The position numbers and the translations under genes were made by a program. Shown piece after piece: positions 52,842 through 60,056 of a stretch of DNA of 64,000 nucleotides. Positions within the stretch are counted from its first letter, which is position 1. Each line of letters starts with the position of its first letter. This DNA is from Methanobacteriota archaeon (GTDB taxonomy: Archaea > Thermoplasmatota > Poseidoniia > Poseidoniales > Thalassarchaeaceae). Where the stretch lies: contig JABIGF010000020.1 in NCBI GenBank assembly GCA_018650285.1, positions 124,001-188,000 on the forward strand, in the 5' to 3' direction. Below the pieces are notes generated by a model. It saw only the letters and a program-made list of their open reading frames with translations, did not search any database and was not told the origin of the DNA.

Positions 52842-53426
52842 TTATTCGTCAAGAGCATTGACAGCATCTTCTAGTTCTTGTTCCATCTCTATTTGTTCGA
52901 TTTGAAAGTTTGCTGGGCCAAACGGGTCCCTTCCATCTTCAAGCATTGTTAGCATTCGGTGGCGTGGGGCCCATGAAAGATGAACATATATTGGGCCAGA
53001 TGCAAGCATCAATATCCATGCCAACATTTCTGGAATGGCAACAGCAATCCCCATCCAATTCCCAAGTAGTATGGCAAATCCAACGAATGGCATGGTATAG
53101 ATCAGCACTCTTGGTGGTGCTATTGGTGGGCGAGGCAAAATCTTGGCTACAATTGCAGAAAATTGGCCTGCGATAGCAAGGCCAAGCGCCACACTCAAAC
53201 CTCTGAAAGATGCTTCATTGAACCACGCTTCAAGATTCCATTCATTGTGATATCCAATTGGTAAAATTAGGGCGATGGTGACTAGGCACCCATAGAATGC
53301 ACCAACTATTGCTGGTTGGCTAATAATTAACGGCCACGCTGCAAATCTTTGAGAGAGTGAAGAGCCAAGAAGCATCTCTTGTTGCGAGTCATCAAGCGAC
53401 GTCAAACGCTCTCGCCACGCTTCCAT
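52842..53426 (-). CDS. Small multi-pass membrane protein of unknown function
   Basis: 194 residues. I moved the start to the ATG at 53426 (MEAWRERLTSLDD), five to six bases after GGAGAG. Four hydrophobic helices occupy about residues 35-155, with 'LPRPPIAPPRVLIYTMPFVG' in the middle. Both ends are cytoplasmic-looking, and the acidic C-terminus 'QIEQIEMEQELEDAVNALDE' may form a short coiled coil. No family recognised. It converges with the oxoamine synthase gene, with a two-base gap. Confidence 0.75.
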   Translation of the reverse strand: MEAWRERLTSLDDSQQEMLLGSSLSQRFAAWPLIISQPAIVGAFYGCLVTIALILPIGYHNEWNLEAWFNEASFRGLSVALGLAIAGQFSAIVAKILPRPPIAPPRVLIYTMPFVGFAILLGNWMGIAVAIPEMLAWILMLASGPIYVHLSWAPRHRMLTMLEDGRDPFGPANFQIEQIEMEQELEDAVNALDE

Positions 53427-53485
53427 AACGTTCTCTCCGTTCAATAAGACGCATTAACATTGACCAATGAATCGAGGTCAATGTC

Positions 53486-54211
53486 CTAATATTCCTCTTC
53501 TTTCAAGTTGCCTGCAGTAATATCTCGCGTCGAATCTATTTCCGCTCTACGCATCTTTCTGAGCAGCGCACCTGGTTGTGGGCTCATTGCCCCTGAGACA
53601 GAAGTATCTTGCCAAACTCTCTTGGTAGGATAGAACTCTTCATCTTCACGGATGCGTGCATCTTCAATTGGGTCTTCAAATCCATCATCACGTTCTTGTG
53701 CGTCACGAAATGTTAGTGCTTGATTAATGTGTGAAATCACTTTTCTAATATTTTGGTTAAGTGGGTAATTCCAGTACAATATTATCTTCCCATTCATGTT
53801 ATCTTTTTTGATAAGAGTGCGTGCAAGAATAGGGTCGCCGACTGCAAATAAGCGGGCTTTTTGTGGTATTTCGTGCCATTTCGTGCCATCGCTGACCCAC
53901 ACTGAAGTGTCATCAATACTTTCCCCAGGGTGCCAAGGGTGCCCTGTTCCAATTGCTACAAGAGCCAATATTTCGTTTCTTTTTACATTCTTCAAAAGCC
54001 GTTCCCATAGTATTGCTGAGGCAATTGCAACTACAATAATTTGTAATAATATATTGGAAAAGTTGACGAGTGTTAGTATCTTAAAGCAGAAGAAAATAGC
54101 AAAAATTCCGATGATTATTGTGAATACTGCATTGATGATATTTTGTCGTTGAATGCCGGCAATATCACTGTTGACCGACCAGAGGCTGGCGTTGTCAGGT
54201 AGGTCGGCCAT
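53486..54211 (-). CDS. Membrane protein of unknown function with cytoplasmic domain
   Basis: 241 residues from the ATG at 54211 (MADLPDNASLW). Two adjacent hydrophobic helices near the N-terminus ('IINAVFTIIIGIFAIFFCF', 'NILLQIIVVAIASAILWERL'), then a ~150-residue soluble part containing a small beta-rich stretch ('SVWVSDGTKWHEIPQKARLF', 'KIILYWNYPLN') and a charged, disordered C-terminus. No family recognised. It is divergent from the rhomboid-like gene. Confidence 0.7.
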   Translation of the reverse strand: MADLPDNASLWSVNSDIAGIQRQNIINAVFTIIIGIFAIFFCFKILTLVNFSNILLQIIVVAIASAILWERLLKNVKRNEILALVAIGTGHPWHPGESIDDTSVWVSDGTKWHEIPQKARLFAVGDPILARTLIKKDNMNGKIILYWNYPLNQNIRKVISHINQALTFRDAQERDDGFEDPIEDARIREDEEFYPTKRVWQDTSVSGAMSPQPGALLRKMRRAEIDSTRDITAGNLKEEEY

Positions 54212-54325
54212 GCTACCCGTTAGAGGTAGACATACATTCAATTTGCGACCGAGTTGTTCAAGTCAGATGGCAATTCTCGACAAAGTGATGTTGCCGCACA
54301 TCTTTCTCTTCAAGAGGGTGAATTG

Positions 54326-55051
54326 ATGAGTCGTGAGGTTAAACCAATTTTGCCTATTCTCCTTCCATGGCGTGATTATCAGGGTAATGTTTTGAATATT
54401 GAAAACTTTCTTAGAACAAGGAAATTCACTCTAATATATGCAATTACCATTGTTGGTGTGTGGAATTATATTGGTTCCACGCCACATTGGAGCGATTGTT
54501 ACAGCGTTGATTTTCAGATTACTTGTGCGACTACAATTTGGGCCGGTGAAATGTTTACTTCTCCCATTAATTTTCTAATTTCATTTTTCACTGCACCTTG
54601 GTTTCACAACAGCTACCAACATATTTTCTTCGTGACTTTTTGCACACTAATTTTCACTCAATCATTTGAAGGAATAAACGGGACAAAAGCAACAATTTTT
54701 CTCTTCTTTGGAATTATTGCGATTGTTTCAATTATCTGCGGACTTAGTATGCATATTGGCCATTACTTATTTCCAGAATATGCACTTTTTTCTGATGGGT
54801 TACAAAGAATCTGGAGCGGCGGTTCAGTAGGTTTCATGGGGCTAATAGGCGCACTAGCAAATCACTCAAGATACAAATGGTTAATGCCAGCAATGCTGTT
54901 TACTTTTGAATTTTGGAATAGGTATTTCAACGGTATTTCAACGTACATTACGCTAGCCCATTTGATGGCGGCAACCATTGGATTTTTCTTTTGGGGATGG
55001 TATATTCGTGAGCAACAGATATTGGCTGAGAATTCAGGAGTAATTCTTTGA
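54326..55051 (+). CDS. Rhomboid-like intramembrane serine protease (candidate)
   Basis: 241 residues from the ATG at 54326, preceded by GAGGGTGA; the longer track start lacks support. About six membrane helices. A Ser in 'WSGGSVGFMGLIGAL' (Ser167) and a His in 'TLAHLMAATIGFFFWGW' (His212) sit where rhomboid proteases have the GxSx serine and the helix-6 histidine. 'FHNSYQHIFFVTF' resembles the helix-2 His-containing region. The usual GxSG is GGSVG, so activity is not assured. If active it would cut membrane-anchored proteins. Neighbours give no further clue. Confidence 0.62.
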   Translation: MSREVKPILPILLPWRDYQGNVLNIENFLRTRKFTLIYAITIVGVWNYIGSTPHWSDCYSVDFQITCATTIWAGEMFTSPINFLISFFTAPWFHNSYQHIFFVTFCTLIFTQSFEGINGTKATIFLFFGIIAIVSIICGLSMHIGHYLFPEYALFSDGLQRIWSGGSVGFMGLIGALANHSRYKWLMPAMLFTFEFWNRYFNGISTYITLAHLMAATIGFFFWGWYIREQQILAENSGVIL

Positions 55052-55181: not shown

Positions 55182-57590
55182 ATGGCCGAACTACCCAAGG
55201 GCGTTACCAAAGAGGTTCGCAGAGGCGGGTCTGGGGTGCTTGAGTTACTCCTCATTGACTTTGATAGAGAAGGTGGAGACGGCTACATTCGTATCGAGCA
55301 AGCAACTGAACCCGCAACCGTCGCTCAATTGGTCATCATAGGTGGCTCACCAGCAATGGCACTCTTTGAATTCCAAACTTTGTTGATGGGTCAAGCAGCG
55401 CTAGATGAATTGCGAACAAGCGCTAGGGCAGAAGATTCTAGAATTTCAGTTCACACAGAAGTTGATTTTAGTTTGATTGCAGATTTACATCCTGAGGCTA
55501 AATTGCATTTCACCGATGAAGATGTGATAACAGGGCAGAAAATTGAGGGTTGGATAATCAACACAAAAAATGATTCTGATTGGTGGCGCTCTAAACAAAA
55601 GCGTGAGTGGACGATGAGCGAATTATCTTCTGATGAGGAGATTGAAGAAACAGTTGCCCCTTCTGTGATAATTGACTACCATTCTGGTGAAGAATTAGAG
55701 GCGGGTTGTAGTTACCTAATTGATGACCAGACGCCAGATTCAGTGATGAAGATTGCAACTCATCTTGCGACAATCGGCCACCCACTATTGGTGATATCAA
55801 GGAATTCTCCACAGCGCCTGTCTGATGATTTTGGTTTACCCGCGTCGCTTTGTTACTGGCTAACTGAAAGAGAAGTAGAGGGTGTTCAAACAATTACTCC
55901 TGGTTTGGAAGCAGTACGACGTGTTTGCGATGAGTTTCTTTGGGCTTCAACTCGTTCTGTAATAATTATTGATGGCGTGGAATACCTTAGTGGAATCCAT
56001 GGTTTTGGTCCATTATTGGGGATGTTGAGGGATCTGTTTGATGGCATTCAGACATCTGATGACATCGTTTTGATACCTGCTGATTTGGATGTATGGGATG
56101 AAAGGGAACGCACAATGCTAGGGCGCGAATGTGACCTCATCTCAGCAGGTCTTGCTGCAGAATGGGCTGAGCGCCCAGCAGTTGTTGAGGGGCATTCATT
56201 TTGTCAAGAGGTTGCAGGGGCAACCATTCCTGAGCCAATACAAATTGATGTTTTGACAGTGGCTGAGGACGATTTCAAAGCAGCGGCTCACCGATTATTG
56301 TCTCCAACTGAACAAATATCTGTAAAAGAGGAAAGTCAACCAGTTAGTGCAAATGGTACAACTGCTGCTCATTTTTCTCAGCCAGTAACTGATTTTTCAG
56401 CTAGAAGTTTGATTGATGAGATGAAGAATGAAGATGATGGTGTAATTATTGCTGAAAAGGAAACGCCGCCGATAGAAAGCGAAGGCGTAATTTCCAATGA
56501 AAGTGATGATGGTAGCGATGAATTCAAACTTCCAGAATGGGCAACTGCTCCATCTGCAAATATGGGAGATGAGCCAATACCAACTCAGCCTGTAGTTGTT
56601 GAATCTGTTGAGCAAAGTCCTACACCTAATCAAACTCCTGAATGGTTTGAATCGGCAAGAAAGGAGGCTCTTGGAGAATCTACAAGTTTCTTGGAAGATA
56701 ACGATTCTCAGATTGAGCCAATAGAGGAGACACTTTCAGTAGAAATTGATGAGCCTAGTGGACCAAAACAACCAACGGTCAACTATCGCTCAAAGAGAGA
56801 ACGAAAGATTTCAGTTCCACACAAACCGGATATATTGCAACTTGAAAAAAGTTCAATGCATTATGCCGCATCAAATAGTAAAGCGGTTGAAACTGAGTTA
56901 GATGAGCCGGGTTTTGAGGCGATTGACCGCACAGTCACAGCACTTAATTCCAAGAGAGACCAGTTCCGCGAAATTGGTGAATGGCAAACAAATGAAGAGC
57001 GCGATTGGCAAGTTCTTGCTACTGATGAGATGGGGGCGGCAGTGGATAATTCACGTCCAGTTAGGCATCATGTGAAGAAAGAGGAGTCATCTTCGGTTTC
57101 ACGATTGCATGTTCGCCAATGGGGTGCTGCATCCAATAGTGCTTCTACAAATACGGCCTATGGTTCCACTCCAGAAGATATTGAAAATCCAAAAATGAGA
57201 GAATTTGCAACAAGAGCCCAGAAGTCAAAGACATTGATTCAGAAACTTGTTGGTTCAGAGTTAGAAGCACTTTATGCTGACCGTAAACAGATGGTTAGTG
57301 CATCATCAATAGATTTGGAAATATTAGAGCGAATTGATGCCTTGGGTAAGAAAGGCCATCCAATTCGTGAATTGGTTGAGAGGATTGAAGCAAATTCCAA
57401 AGAGGGTACAAAATTTTTGTCGGTACTGGAGAAAAGGTCAGTCCAAGTTGATGATTTAATCAAACGATTGAATGTTCAAGAAGAGCGTTCTGTAATTGAT
57501 TCAAAGGTGGCGGCAAAATATAGGAAGAATCTCATTAATTTTGAACAAATAAAGGAAGTAGAATCATTACTTTCAGATTTTGAAGGTTGA
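55182..57590 (+). CDS. DUF835-domain protein with long disordered linker and C-terminal coiled coil
   Basis: 802 residues from the ATG at 55182, which follows GGTGAGG. Residues ~15-110 form an archaeal accessory domain ('DGYIRIEQATEP', 'VIIGGSPAMALFEFQTLLMG') that recalls DUF2226. Residues ~177-320 are DUF835, a RecA/KaiC-like fold without a P-loop that is common in archaea ('PLLVISRNSPQRLSDDFG', 'YWLTEREVEG', 'SVIIIDGVEYLSGIHGFGPL'). A ~330-residue acidic, Ser/Pro-rich linker follows, then helices at ~650-800 with coiled-coil character ('LIQKLVGSELEALYADRKQM'). It heads an apparent three-gene unit with the DnaA-like ATPase and a cysteine-cluster protein. DUF835 functions are largely unknown. 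Confidence 0.82.
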   Translation: MAELPKGVTKEVRRGGSGVLELLLIDFDREGGDGYIRIEQATEPATVAQLVIIGGSPAMALFEFQTLLMGQAALDELRTSARAEDSRISVHTEVDFSLIADLHPEAKLHFTDEDVITGQKIEGWIINTKNDSDWWRSKQKREWTMSELSSDEEIEETVAPSVIIDYHSGEELEAGCSYLIDDQTPDSVMKIATHLATIGHPLLVISRNSPQRLSDDFGLPASLCYWLTEREVEGVQTITPGLEAVRRVCDEFLWASTRSVIIIDGVEYLSGIHGFGPLLGMLRDLFDGIQTSDDIVLIPADLDVWDERERTMLGRECDLISAGLAAEWAERPAVVEGHSFCQEVAGATIPEPIQIDVLTVAEDDFKAAAHRLLSPTEQISVKEESQPVSANGTTAAHFSQPVTDFSARSLIDEMKNEDDGVIIAEKETPPIESEGVISNESDDGSDEFKLPEWATAPSANMGDEPIPTQPVVVESVEQSPTPNQTPEWFESARKEALGESTSFLEDNDSQIEPIEETLSVEIDEPSGPKQPTVNYRSKRERKISVPHKPDILQLEKSSMHYAASNSKAVETELDEPGFEAIDRTVTALNSKRDQFREIGEWQTNEERDWQVLATDEMGAAVDNSRPVRHHVKKEESSSVSRLHVRQWGAASNSASTNTAYGSTPEDIENPKMREFATRAQKSKTLIQKLVGSELEALYADRKQMVSASSIDLEILERIDALGKKGHPIRELVERIEANSKEGTKFLSVLEKRSVQVDDLIKRLNVQEERSVIDSKVAAKYRKNLINFEQIKEVESLLSDFEG

Positions 57591-57636
57591 ATAAGTTAGG
57601 TATTGTTGATAATCCGAATTAGATAGGGAGAAACTG

Positions 57637-59580
57637 GTGAAAGAGATGAGTCAGCGAACCCAACTCCAACAACAATTGGAGAAGAGCCGCCGTCTTCTTG
57701 CTGAGAGAAAGTCAGAAAGAGATTCAAAAGAAGGTGCAGAACAAGTTGTACATTCTTCACTTGGCCGTTTGATACGGGAAAGAAATATGCCAGCAGATAC
57801 GAATCCATTTGATGGCCCATTCCTTGCATCTACATCGGATGCGGTGCAGAAGAAAACAGGGACATTCGGGTCTATTGCTGCTGAAAGGATTCAGCGAATG
57901 AGGCAAGGTGCAGAAGCAACGGCTCCTATGATTGACCGTGATCAGGCAGGTGTCCCAATTTCTTTGGATACGCCCGCTTGGATATATTCAGAGGTTGTTG
58001 ACCCAGAGTCTAGCGATAGTGCGACCCCAGTTTGGAGAGATGTGCTTTCAAAACAGAGAGGTCATTCTCGGCCGAGCACTAGTGCTAGGGATGCGCATGC
58101 AGAACTAACCGATTCAACCCAGTCAAACGATTCATCCCAAATGGTGGCACTGGCTGAAGAAATTGCATTAGGGCGGCCAAAGTGGCCTAGTATTTTCATG
58201 CCAAACCCTCTTTATTCTTGGGGTAATTGGCAAGTTGGCCCAAATAACAGGATGGCTAGTACTGCGGCTAGAGAGATAATCACTTATCCAGCGGAGAGAG
58301 CAAATCCGCTCCTTATTTTGGGCAGTGATGGAGTTGGTAAGAGCCACTTGCTTCAAGCGTTAGGTTCCTCACTTTACACAAGATTGCCTGATAGAGAGAT
58401 TCGCATTATTGCGGGTGGTGATATCCCTGCTCAACTGCCAGATGATTGGGTGGATGCAATACAGGGATGCAGTGCGTTACTTGTGGAGGACATCCACCAG
58501 ATGGAGGGGGCGACTCAAGATGACCTTGGCAAGGTTGTAGATTATTGTTTAAATCTCGGCGTTCAAGTGGTACTAACATCTGATGGTGACTCAAATTTCT
58601 CCACTATTCTAAACAGTGCAATTAGTGGTGCTGTAGAGGTTAATATTTCCAATCCTGATGCGATGACAATTGTGTTATTTTTGCGCAATCGTGCATTAAT
58701 TCGTGGCATTTCACTCTCTGATGGACAATTGGGCGCCATTGCTGCCGCGGCTAGTGATTGGCGCAAGGCAGCATCTGGTTTTGAGCAGGTAGCTATAGCC
58801 ATTGAGGCTGGTGCTGAACCATTAGGTGTTTCAGATATTGAAACAATTCTTGGTGGTGAAGAATTACCGATGAGAGGCGATGATACTTTGGTTGCTTGGG
58901 ATAGCGAACAGACCGGTCAAAAAATTGTTCGAGAGGTGCTTGATGATGTATTACCCCGTGGCGCAATGCCAAATATTGACTTGGTTACTGAATTGGAATC
59001 AAAGGTAGATGACTATGTGGCACCTAATTTGATGCCTGAGTCTAGTCGAGATGCAGTGGATGCATTAATTGATAGACACCTTGGTAGAGAAAAGAGTGCC
59101 TTAGAAGAGGCAAGGTCTCGATTAGAAGATGAAGCAGCACCAACGAATTTAGAGGTGCCTAGAGCCGATTTACCTCATATTGACTTGATGAGTGACGGCT
59201 TCCTTGATAGGTTAGAATCAAGATTACAACGTCATCAAGATGAATTATTTTCATTACATAATGAAATGGAAACCATTGCAGGACAATTAGATGATGCCGA
59301 GCCTAAAGAATTGGTCGCAATGGCCGACAGAATGCTTGAAATTGAGCGCGAATTATCCCGCATTTCAAGATTAGATGCCGGTGAAGCACTCAAATCAAGA
59401 AAGAAGCCATCTCGTCCATACGAACCAGAAATTATTGAGGAATATGTCCCAGAAGGCGAGTGGGATATTGACGAGGAATCAATATCTGCTGATGACCTCC
59501 TTGAACCAAAAGCAGTTCTCCGTCCAATAAAGGTCTTGAAACCAATATTTTTGGATGACCGAGAAGGCGAAGAAGAATGA
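57637..59580 (+). CDS. DnaA-like AAA+ ATPase with flanking coiled coils
   Basis: 647 residues (GTG start; an ATG at 57646 is also well placed behind GGTGA). Residues ~193-390 match the bacterial initiator DnaA AAA+ core: 'YSWGNWQVGPNNRMASTAAR', Walker A 'GSDGVGKS' (229-236), Walker B 'LLVEDIHQM' (281-289), sensor 1 'VVLTSD' (311-316), and a sensor-2-like Arg376 in 'SDWRKAASGF'. The box-VII arginine finger (Arg in the 'SRF' segment of DnaA) is replaced by 'SAI'. The C-terminal DnaA-box-binding helix-turn-helix is absent; instead there is an acidic linker and a coiled coil (~535-600). The N-terminal ~180 residues begin with another coiled coil. The protein is probably cytosolic. A replication-initiation role is not implied: archaea use Orc1/Cdc6. 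Confidence 0.8.
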   Translation: MKEMSQRTQLQQQLEKSRRLLAERKSERDSKEGAEQVVHSSLGRLIRERNMPADTNPFDGPFLASTSDAVQKKTGTFGSIAAERIQRMRQGAEATAPMIDRDQAGVPISLDTPAWIYSEVVDPESSDSATPVWRDVLSKQRGHSRPSTSARDAHAELTDSTQSNDSSQMVALAEEIALGRPKWPSIFMPNPLYSWGNWQVGPNNRMASTAAREIITYPAERANPLLILGSDGVGKSHLLQALGSSLYTRLPDREIRIIAGGDIPAQLPDDWVDAIQGCSALLVEDIHQMEGATQDDLGKVVDYCLNLGVQVVLTSDGDSNFSTILNSAISGAVEVNISNPDAMTIVLFLRNRALIRGISLSDGQLGAIAAAASDWRKAASGFEQVAIAIEAGAEPLGVSDIETILGGEELPMRGDDTLVAWDSEQTGQKIVREVLDDVLPRGAMPNIDLVTELESKVDDYVAPNLMPESSRDAVDALIDRHLGREKSALEEARSRLEDEAAPTNLEVPRADLPHIDLMSDGFLDRLESRLQRHQDELFSLHNEMETIAGQLDDAEPKELVAMADRMLEIERELSRISRLDAGEALKSRKKPSRPYEPEIIEEYVPEGEWDIDEESISADDLLEPKAVLRPIKVLKPIFLDDREGEEE

Positions 59581-60056
59581 CGAAATGGAATAATCGATTT
59601 CGTCCACCTAAGGATGAGTGGTGGAGTAAGGGTATTGATTTCACCTGTCTTCCTGAATGTGGACGCTGTTGTGACGAACCTGGAGGGATTGTCTATCTTT
59701 CACGACAAGATGCCGAGAGAATTGCAGAACATCAAGAGATGAGTTTAGTCTCATGGCTCGAAAAATTTTGTCGGACTACTTACGACGGGAGATTTGTCTT
59801 AGAATCAAAACCTAGTGATGGGAGATGCATCTATCTAACTAGTGAGAAAGTTTGTACGATTTACGAAGTTAAGCCCGCTCAGTGTTCGGCCTTTCCTTTT
59901 TGGGGGGAGAATTTAGTCACAGACCGCGCATGGCAGAAAACCAAAACGATATGTCCCGGAATTGATCACCCTGATGCAATTATGATTGATGGTGATATGA
60001 TAAAACTGAAACTTGAGGCAGACAAAGCGGCTGAGAAAGGTTTCCGAATGGTGTGA
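59577..60056 (+). CDS. YkgJ-type cysteine-cluster protein
   Basis: 159 residues, overlapping the ATPase stop by ATGA, so translation is coupled. The CxxC..CC arrangement 'CLPECGRCCDEPGG' near residue 24 and later cysteines in 'RCIYLTSEKVCTIYEVKPAQ' and 'KTICPGI' define the zinc/iron-sulfur-binding YkgJ (CxxCxxCC) family. The biochemical role of the family is not established; a metal cluster is expected. Its linkage to the DUF835/DnaA-like pair suggests a shared process. Confidence 0.87.
   Translation: MTKWNNRFRPPKDEWWSKGIDFTCLPECGRCCDEPGGIVYLSRQDAERIAEHQEMSLVSWLEKFCRTTYDGRFVLESKPSDGRCIYLTSEKVCTIYEVKPAQCSAFPFWGENLVTDRAWQKTKTICPGIDHPDAIMIDGDMIKLKLEADKAAEKGFRMV

Follow-up and report, generated by a model that had tools for sequence, protein, structure and literature searches.

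Four genes of the order Poseidoniales (Marine Group II, MGII) form a conserved unit, and we infer, at about even chance, that they encode one protein complex, a membrane-linked scaffold or signalling assembly derived from a DnaA/KaiC-type switch. The window, the 64,000-nucleotide stretch of DNA that was analysed, belongs to a 2.1-Mb draft genome, whose placement in Poseidoniales follows from the two-family pattern and named Thermoplasmatota relatives, and the features of the unit are listed in Table 1. The three codirectional ORFs that an earlier reading of the sequence alone (the sequence-only reading) had described all lie where it placed them, and Pfam matches assign them to DUF835, DnaA-like and CxxCxxCC proteins. 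The spacing of 46 bases between genes 1 and 2 and the ATGA overlap between genes 2 and 3 are also as described. The same reading had proposed a unit of three genes; the unit is indeed conserved, but a fourth gene, transcribed divergently, has to be added to it.

The start of gene 1 is backed by its orthologs, in which the initial methionine is near-invariant. For gene 2, the true start may be the ATG at 57646, with GGTGA upstream, rather than the GTG at 57637. Between gene 4 and gene 1 the window contains a Rhomboid-like membrane ORF (54254-55051, plus strand), for which no relative was seen at the same position in the other genomes compared. Many genomes have a small-protein gene, DUF309-like by eye, between gene 4 and gene 1 (L105, L112, L067-L074).

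Table 1. Features of the four-gene unit, in positions of the window
Feature	Position	Strand	Description
Gene 4	53486..54241	-	251 aa; two TM helices predicted close to the N terminus and followed by a conserved soluble region
Gene 1	55182..57590	+	802 aa, NTD-DUF835-linker-helical C terminus
NTD of gene 1	55182..55571	+	residues 1-130
DUF835 domain of gene 1	55677..56189	+	residues 166-336, modelled KaiC/RecA-superfamily fold
C-terminal region of gene 1	57249..57587	+	residues 690-802, possible coiled coil
Gene 2	57637..59580	+	647 aa, GTG start, DnaA domain III-like
DnaA domain III of gene 2, including lid	58195..58860	+	residues 187-408
Walker A of gene 2, GSDGVGKSH	58321..58347	+	intact in the source genome
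Helical hairpin of gene 2	59176..59367	+	residues 514-577, conserved
Gene 3	59577..60056	+	159 aa, CxxCxxCC (YkgJ-type), putative metal-binding protein

Conservation and linkage in Poseidoniales

Our searches covered 292 genomes at the phylum level and 106 Poseidoniales genomes. Among those of the order that both searches sampled, genes 2 and 3 have an identical distribution (50/50 genomes). The orthologs of gene 1 adjoin gene 2, and the gene arrangement is maintained in more than 30 Poseidoniales genomes. At 25 out of 35 loci, genes 1 and 2 share a four-base overlap. The linkage of these genes is far beyond chance, and the survey of gene neighbourhoods found neither unlinked genes nor independent phyletic patterns, the outcome that the sequence-only reading had named as speaking against a unit.

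Fourteen Poseidoniales genomes lack the set. In them the flanking genes, KBL and citrate synthase, have stayed adjacent or nearly adjacent, and exactly genes 4, 1, 2 and 3 are absent from the space between. Gene 5 (52842-53444) remains in eight of the 14 and was for this reason rejected as a member of the unit. A genome-wide search with a single gene 4 sequence found the gene absent from the set-lacking genomes of the family among those listed; this search also missed the gene in 12 genomes that bear the set, although synteny maps show it in several of them, so that the protein is too divergent there for a search with one sequence. In G158 the set is absent together with citrate synthase, which is probably an assembly gap. 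The loss was observed among the small-genome members of one family and may go back to one streamlining event, in other words about one observation, so that co-loss alone is weak evidence for a shared function.

The gene 1 protein

Pfam finds DUF835 (Pfam: PF05763) at residues 185-316 of the gene 1 protein with an E-value of 7.6e-18 and 65 bits, above the cut-off of 33.1. FlaH is a KaiC-like archaellum protein, and its structure (4yds) is the closest to the model of this domain (Z 13.7, 3.6 Å, 157 aligned residues), tied with KaiC (Z 13.5). The structure compared was a two-domain model of the NTD and DUF835, which matched over DUF835 only. Going by this model, the domain is a KaiC/RecA-type fold, and no P-loop is apparent in its sequence. 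DUF835 has been described as an inactivated KaiC (iKaiC) family of archaeal signalling proteins, for which the architectures REC-DUF835 and REC-PAS-PAS-DUF835 are given (PMC5847659). The gene 1 protein resembles this family in its Pfam domain, its predicted fold and the lack of an apparent P-loop. It differs in that DUF835 occurs with the NTD and is paired or fused with a DnaA domain, and no REC or PAS domain was detected alongside DUF835 here.

The NTD is predicted to fold as b-a-b-b-b-a-b (b, strand; a, helix) with a pLDDT of about 90. A pattern-based assignment to DUF4388/PATAN was rejected as there was no Pfam match; two relatives instead show a weak link to DUF2226 (E 5e-4). The linker at residues 345-690 is mildly acidic with a net charge of -0.09 per residue, and a weak heptad pattern is the basis of the possible C-terminal coiled coil. 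MGII also has another conserved DUF835 paralog, about 300 aa long and lacking the NTD (L243, L244, L245 and others), in a separate syntenic neighbourhood of its own.

The DnaA module of gene 2

The Pfam family Bac_DnaA matches residues 192-318 of the gene 2 protein (E 5e-16). Its model aligns with DnaA (8btg) over 221 residues at 2.1 Å with Z 21.5, compared with Z 17.0 for Hda and about 14-15 for other AAA+ proteins; on this structural match, gene 2 carries a true DnaA domain III, the part whose fold and sequence are shared with bacterial DnaA. The similarity stops at the lid, and no family match to domain IV, the DnaA-box-binding helix-turn-helix, was found in the MGII or the fused proteins described below. 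Hda is a DnaA-related regulator without domain IV, and a DnaA-type AAA+ domain lacking domain IV is common to Hda and the gene 2 protein, but the match is weaker than that to DnaA itself and the partners differ. The equivalog cut-off of TIGR00362 (343.9) was reached neither by gene 2 (77.6 bits) nor by the fused protein of L078 (334.1).

The active site differs between MGII and other Thermoplasmatota. The arginine finger occurs in none of the 35 MGII orthologs compared with 18 of 22 proteins from other Thermoplasmatota, and the Walker-A lysine in 18/35 compared with 22/22. The source genome's own protein retains this lysine, which is lost in 17 of the 35. Sensor-2 arginine is present in 21 of the 35 MGII orthologs and we hence claim no loss of it. 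Most non-MGII forms retain the initiator-specific motif, the region of which is altered in MGII. Like bacterial DnaA, the non-MGII relatives possess Walker A and B, the initiator-specific motif and the arginine finger, with an E-value of 1e-76 to B. subtilis DnaA. Judged by these residues, the DnaA module is catalytically intact outside MGII. The archaeal proteins of this group differ from bacterial DnaA in the missing domain IV, in being joined to DUF835 and in having a host with Orc1/Cdc6, and the MGII form additionally in the missing arginine finger.

DnaA is regarded as the mark of bacterial replication initiation, whereas archaea use Orc1/Cdc6, and two Orc1/Cdc6 genes were found in each of the eight genomes tested. 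Because these are present and domain IV is absent, the DnaA module of gene 2 is unlikely to be a replication initiator. The DnaA tree puts MGII on a long branch and does not separate one transfer from several. DnaA-like proteins of archaea also occur on their own, with a length of about 426 aa (L084:9232-10509, L160, L093), and the one in L084 matches DnaA domains I to III without IV.

The sequence-only reading had given the first two proteins a common design of ATPase-like core, long acidic linker and terminal coiled coils. The first element has to be corrected, since no P-loop is apparent in the KaiC-type DUF835 domain and the DnaA module of MGII has lost its arginine finger and, in many orthologs, the Walker-A lysine. 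The long linker of protein 1 is only mildly acidic, and among the termini it is the helical hairpin of protein 2 that is well predicted (pLDDT about 90), the coil of protein 1 being no more than the heptad pattern mentioned above.

Single-chain relatives in other Thermoplasmatota

In other Thermoplasmatota, NTD, DnaA and DUF835 occur in this order on one polypeptide of about 650-980 aa. The N termini of these fused proteins are matched by the profile of the MGII gene 1 NTD (E 2e-17 to 2e-5) and their C termini by that of DUF835 (E about 1e-18 to 1e-30), with the DnaA domain between, and Pfam confirms both DnaA and DUF835 within one chain. The fused protein occurs in one record named as Methanomassiliicoccales and one named as Thermoplasmata. 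Variants are an NTD-DUF835 protein that lacks DnaA and, judging by gene order and size, occupies the same gyrA-gyrB-thiC locus; an NTD-DnaA-zinc ribbon protein; and a pair of neighbouring genes, one for DnaA and one for DUF835 (L081).

The fused loci had first been picked by DnaA or DUF835, hence we searched the 292 genomes with the NTD alone. All MGII matches stronger than 1e-11 were gene 1. Of the strong matches from outside MGII, about two thirds lie in the same ORF as DnaA and/or DUF835, and the remainder are mostly long proteins without Pfam domains. No relatives of gene 3 or gene 4 were found near the fused loci.

Since the same modules form one chain elsewhere, the gene 1 and gene 2 proteins of MGII likely form a complex by direct contact. 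A joint complex and a conserved unit, both claimed by the sequence-only reading, are strongly supported by the identical phyletic patterns, the loss as a block and the one-chain fusions.

The surroundings of the fused genes bear on another explanation, that the DnaA-derived protein is a DNA-transaction factor in replication, recombination or nucleoid structure. In L075, L077-L079 and L095 the fused gene is close to gyrA-gyrB; in two families fused genes adjoin a Rad51/RadB-like gene, and in one they are near PriL. These surroundings, together with the true DnaA domain III and the initiator-specific motif of most non-MGII forms, fit such a role. We nevertheless consider it unlikely: domain IV is missing and Orc1/Cdc6 present, the MGII forms lack the arginine finger and are changed in the motif region, their neighbours are metabolic genes, and the unit includes a predicted membrane protein. 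Near the fused gene of L078, the gyrase B gene (L078:3687-6965) contains an intein (Pfam: Intein_splicing, HNH).

Genes 3 and 4

Gene 3 matches CxxCxxCC (Pfam: PF03692) with an E-value of 7.1e-11 and passes the cut-off of 23 with 43.1 bits; based on the cysteine motif, it encodes a putative metal-binding protein. It differs from the CxxCxxCC/YkgJ family in its conserved link to the other genes of the unit. Gene 3 is codirectional with the others in the source genome and in the sister family, where a 4-base overlap is usual; eight relatives from its own family, two of them of the same genus as the source, have it inverted. The ATGA coupling noted earlier thus exists here and in the sister family but is not conserved within the family of the source genome, and inversion in much of one family makes the tie of gene 3 to genes 1 and 2 weaker.

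Gene 4 is retained and lost together with genes 1-3 and has no significant match in Pfam, NCBIfam or PADLOC. An anti-phage defence system was considered and rejected, as PADLOC gave only a marginal P-loop match (E 0.002).

Archaellum and pilus genes

Less probable still is that the unit is an archaellum or type IV pilus accessory, in which a pseudo-KaiC/DnaA platform would, by analogy with FlaH, position or regulate the motor; we regard this as improbable. Of the 50 genomes with the set, 45 also have archaellin, published archaellum distributions resemble that of the set and match it only in part (PMC6461757, PMC6336850), and the DUF835 model is nearest to FlaH, though tied with KaiC. A pilus-like operon with T2SSE and two T2SSF genes (L157:6470-13116, G000:C3) also has nearly the same pattern as the set in 14 genomes. 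However, the set-bearing genomes G000, G200, G270, G280 and G290 have no archaellin, three genomes of the source genus being among the set-bearers without it, and archaellin occurs in two genera that lack the set (G061, G098 and G191; G241). Most of the archaellated genomes tested possess a FlaI-like ATPase of 570-585 aa, which was found neither in the source genus nor in G280, and streamlining accounts for much of the correlation between archaellin and the set. An obligate tie to the archaellum is rejected by the archaellin distribution, and the archaellum explanation is largely refuted in the source genus.

Discussion

Synteny within the order extends over the whole neighbourhood, from KBL to GDPD, as it would if the genes merely hitch-hiked in a slowly rearranging region and their adjacency had no functional meaning, but this is very improbable given the fusion of the same modules elsewhere, the 4-base overlaps and the absence of exactly these genes while their neighbours stay.

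In the complex that we prefer, the gene 1 and gene 2 proteins would bind each other via their DnaA and pseudo-KaiC domains and self-associate via their helical C termini. The gene 4 protein would tether the complex to the membrane by its two predicted TM helices, the sole basis for this step, and the CxxCxxCC protein of gene 3 may act as a partner or modifier dependent on metal or redox state. Outside MGII, the one-chain form would work as an ATP-driven switch that couples an active DnaA-type AAA+ domain to an inactive KaiC domain. The MGII pair may have turned into a largely structural scaffold whose state would be set, at best, by the binding of ATP and not by its hydrolysis. The output of the complex might be cell organisation or signalling; the sequence-only reading had put forward nucleoid or envelope organisation or metal-dependent signalling as candidate roles.

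We tentatively suggest, as a possibility held with less confidence than the complex itself, that Thermoplasmatota took up the AAA+ part of bacterial DnaA, dropped the DNA-binding part and built from it and an inactive KaiC domain a novel type of cytoplasmic switch or scaffold that has no part in replication initiation, and which in MGII was divided over two proteins, became in part a pseudo-ATPase and was tied to a membrane protein.

All parts except the NTD and gene 4 belong to known families. We found no description of an archaeal DnaA-DUF835 protein in the open-access literature, subscription papers being outside the search, and neither the combination of modules nor the decay of the DnaA active site appears to have been reported before. 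If our explanation is true, a widespread archaeal family has a DnaA ATPase core without the DNA-binding domain and joined to a KaiC-type domain, which would be a case of DnaA put to a different use, and the fusions would name binding partners in an uncultured and very abundant marine group.
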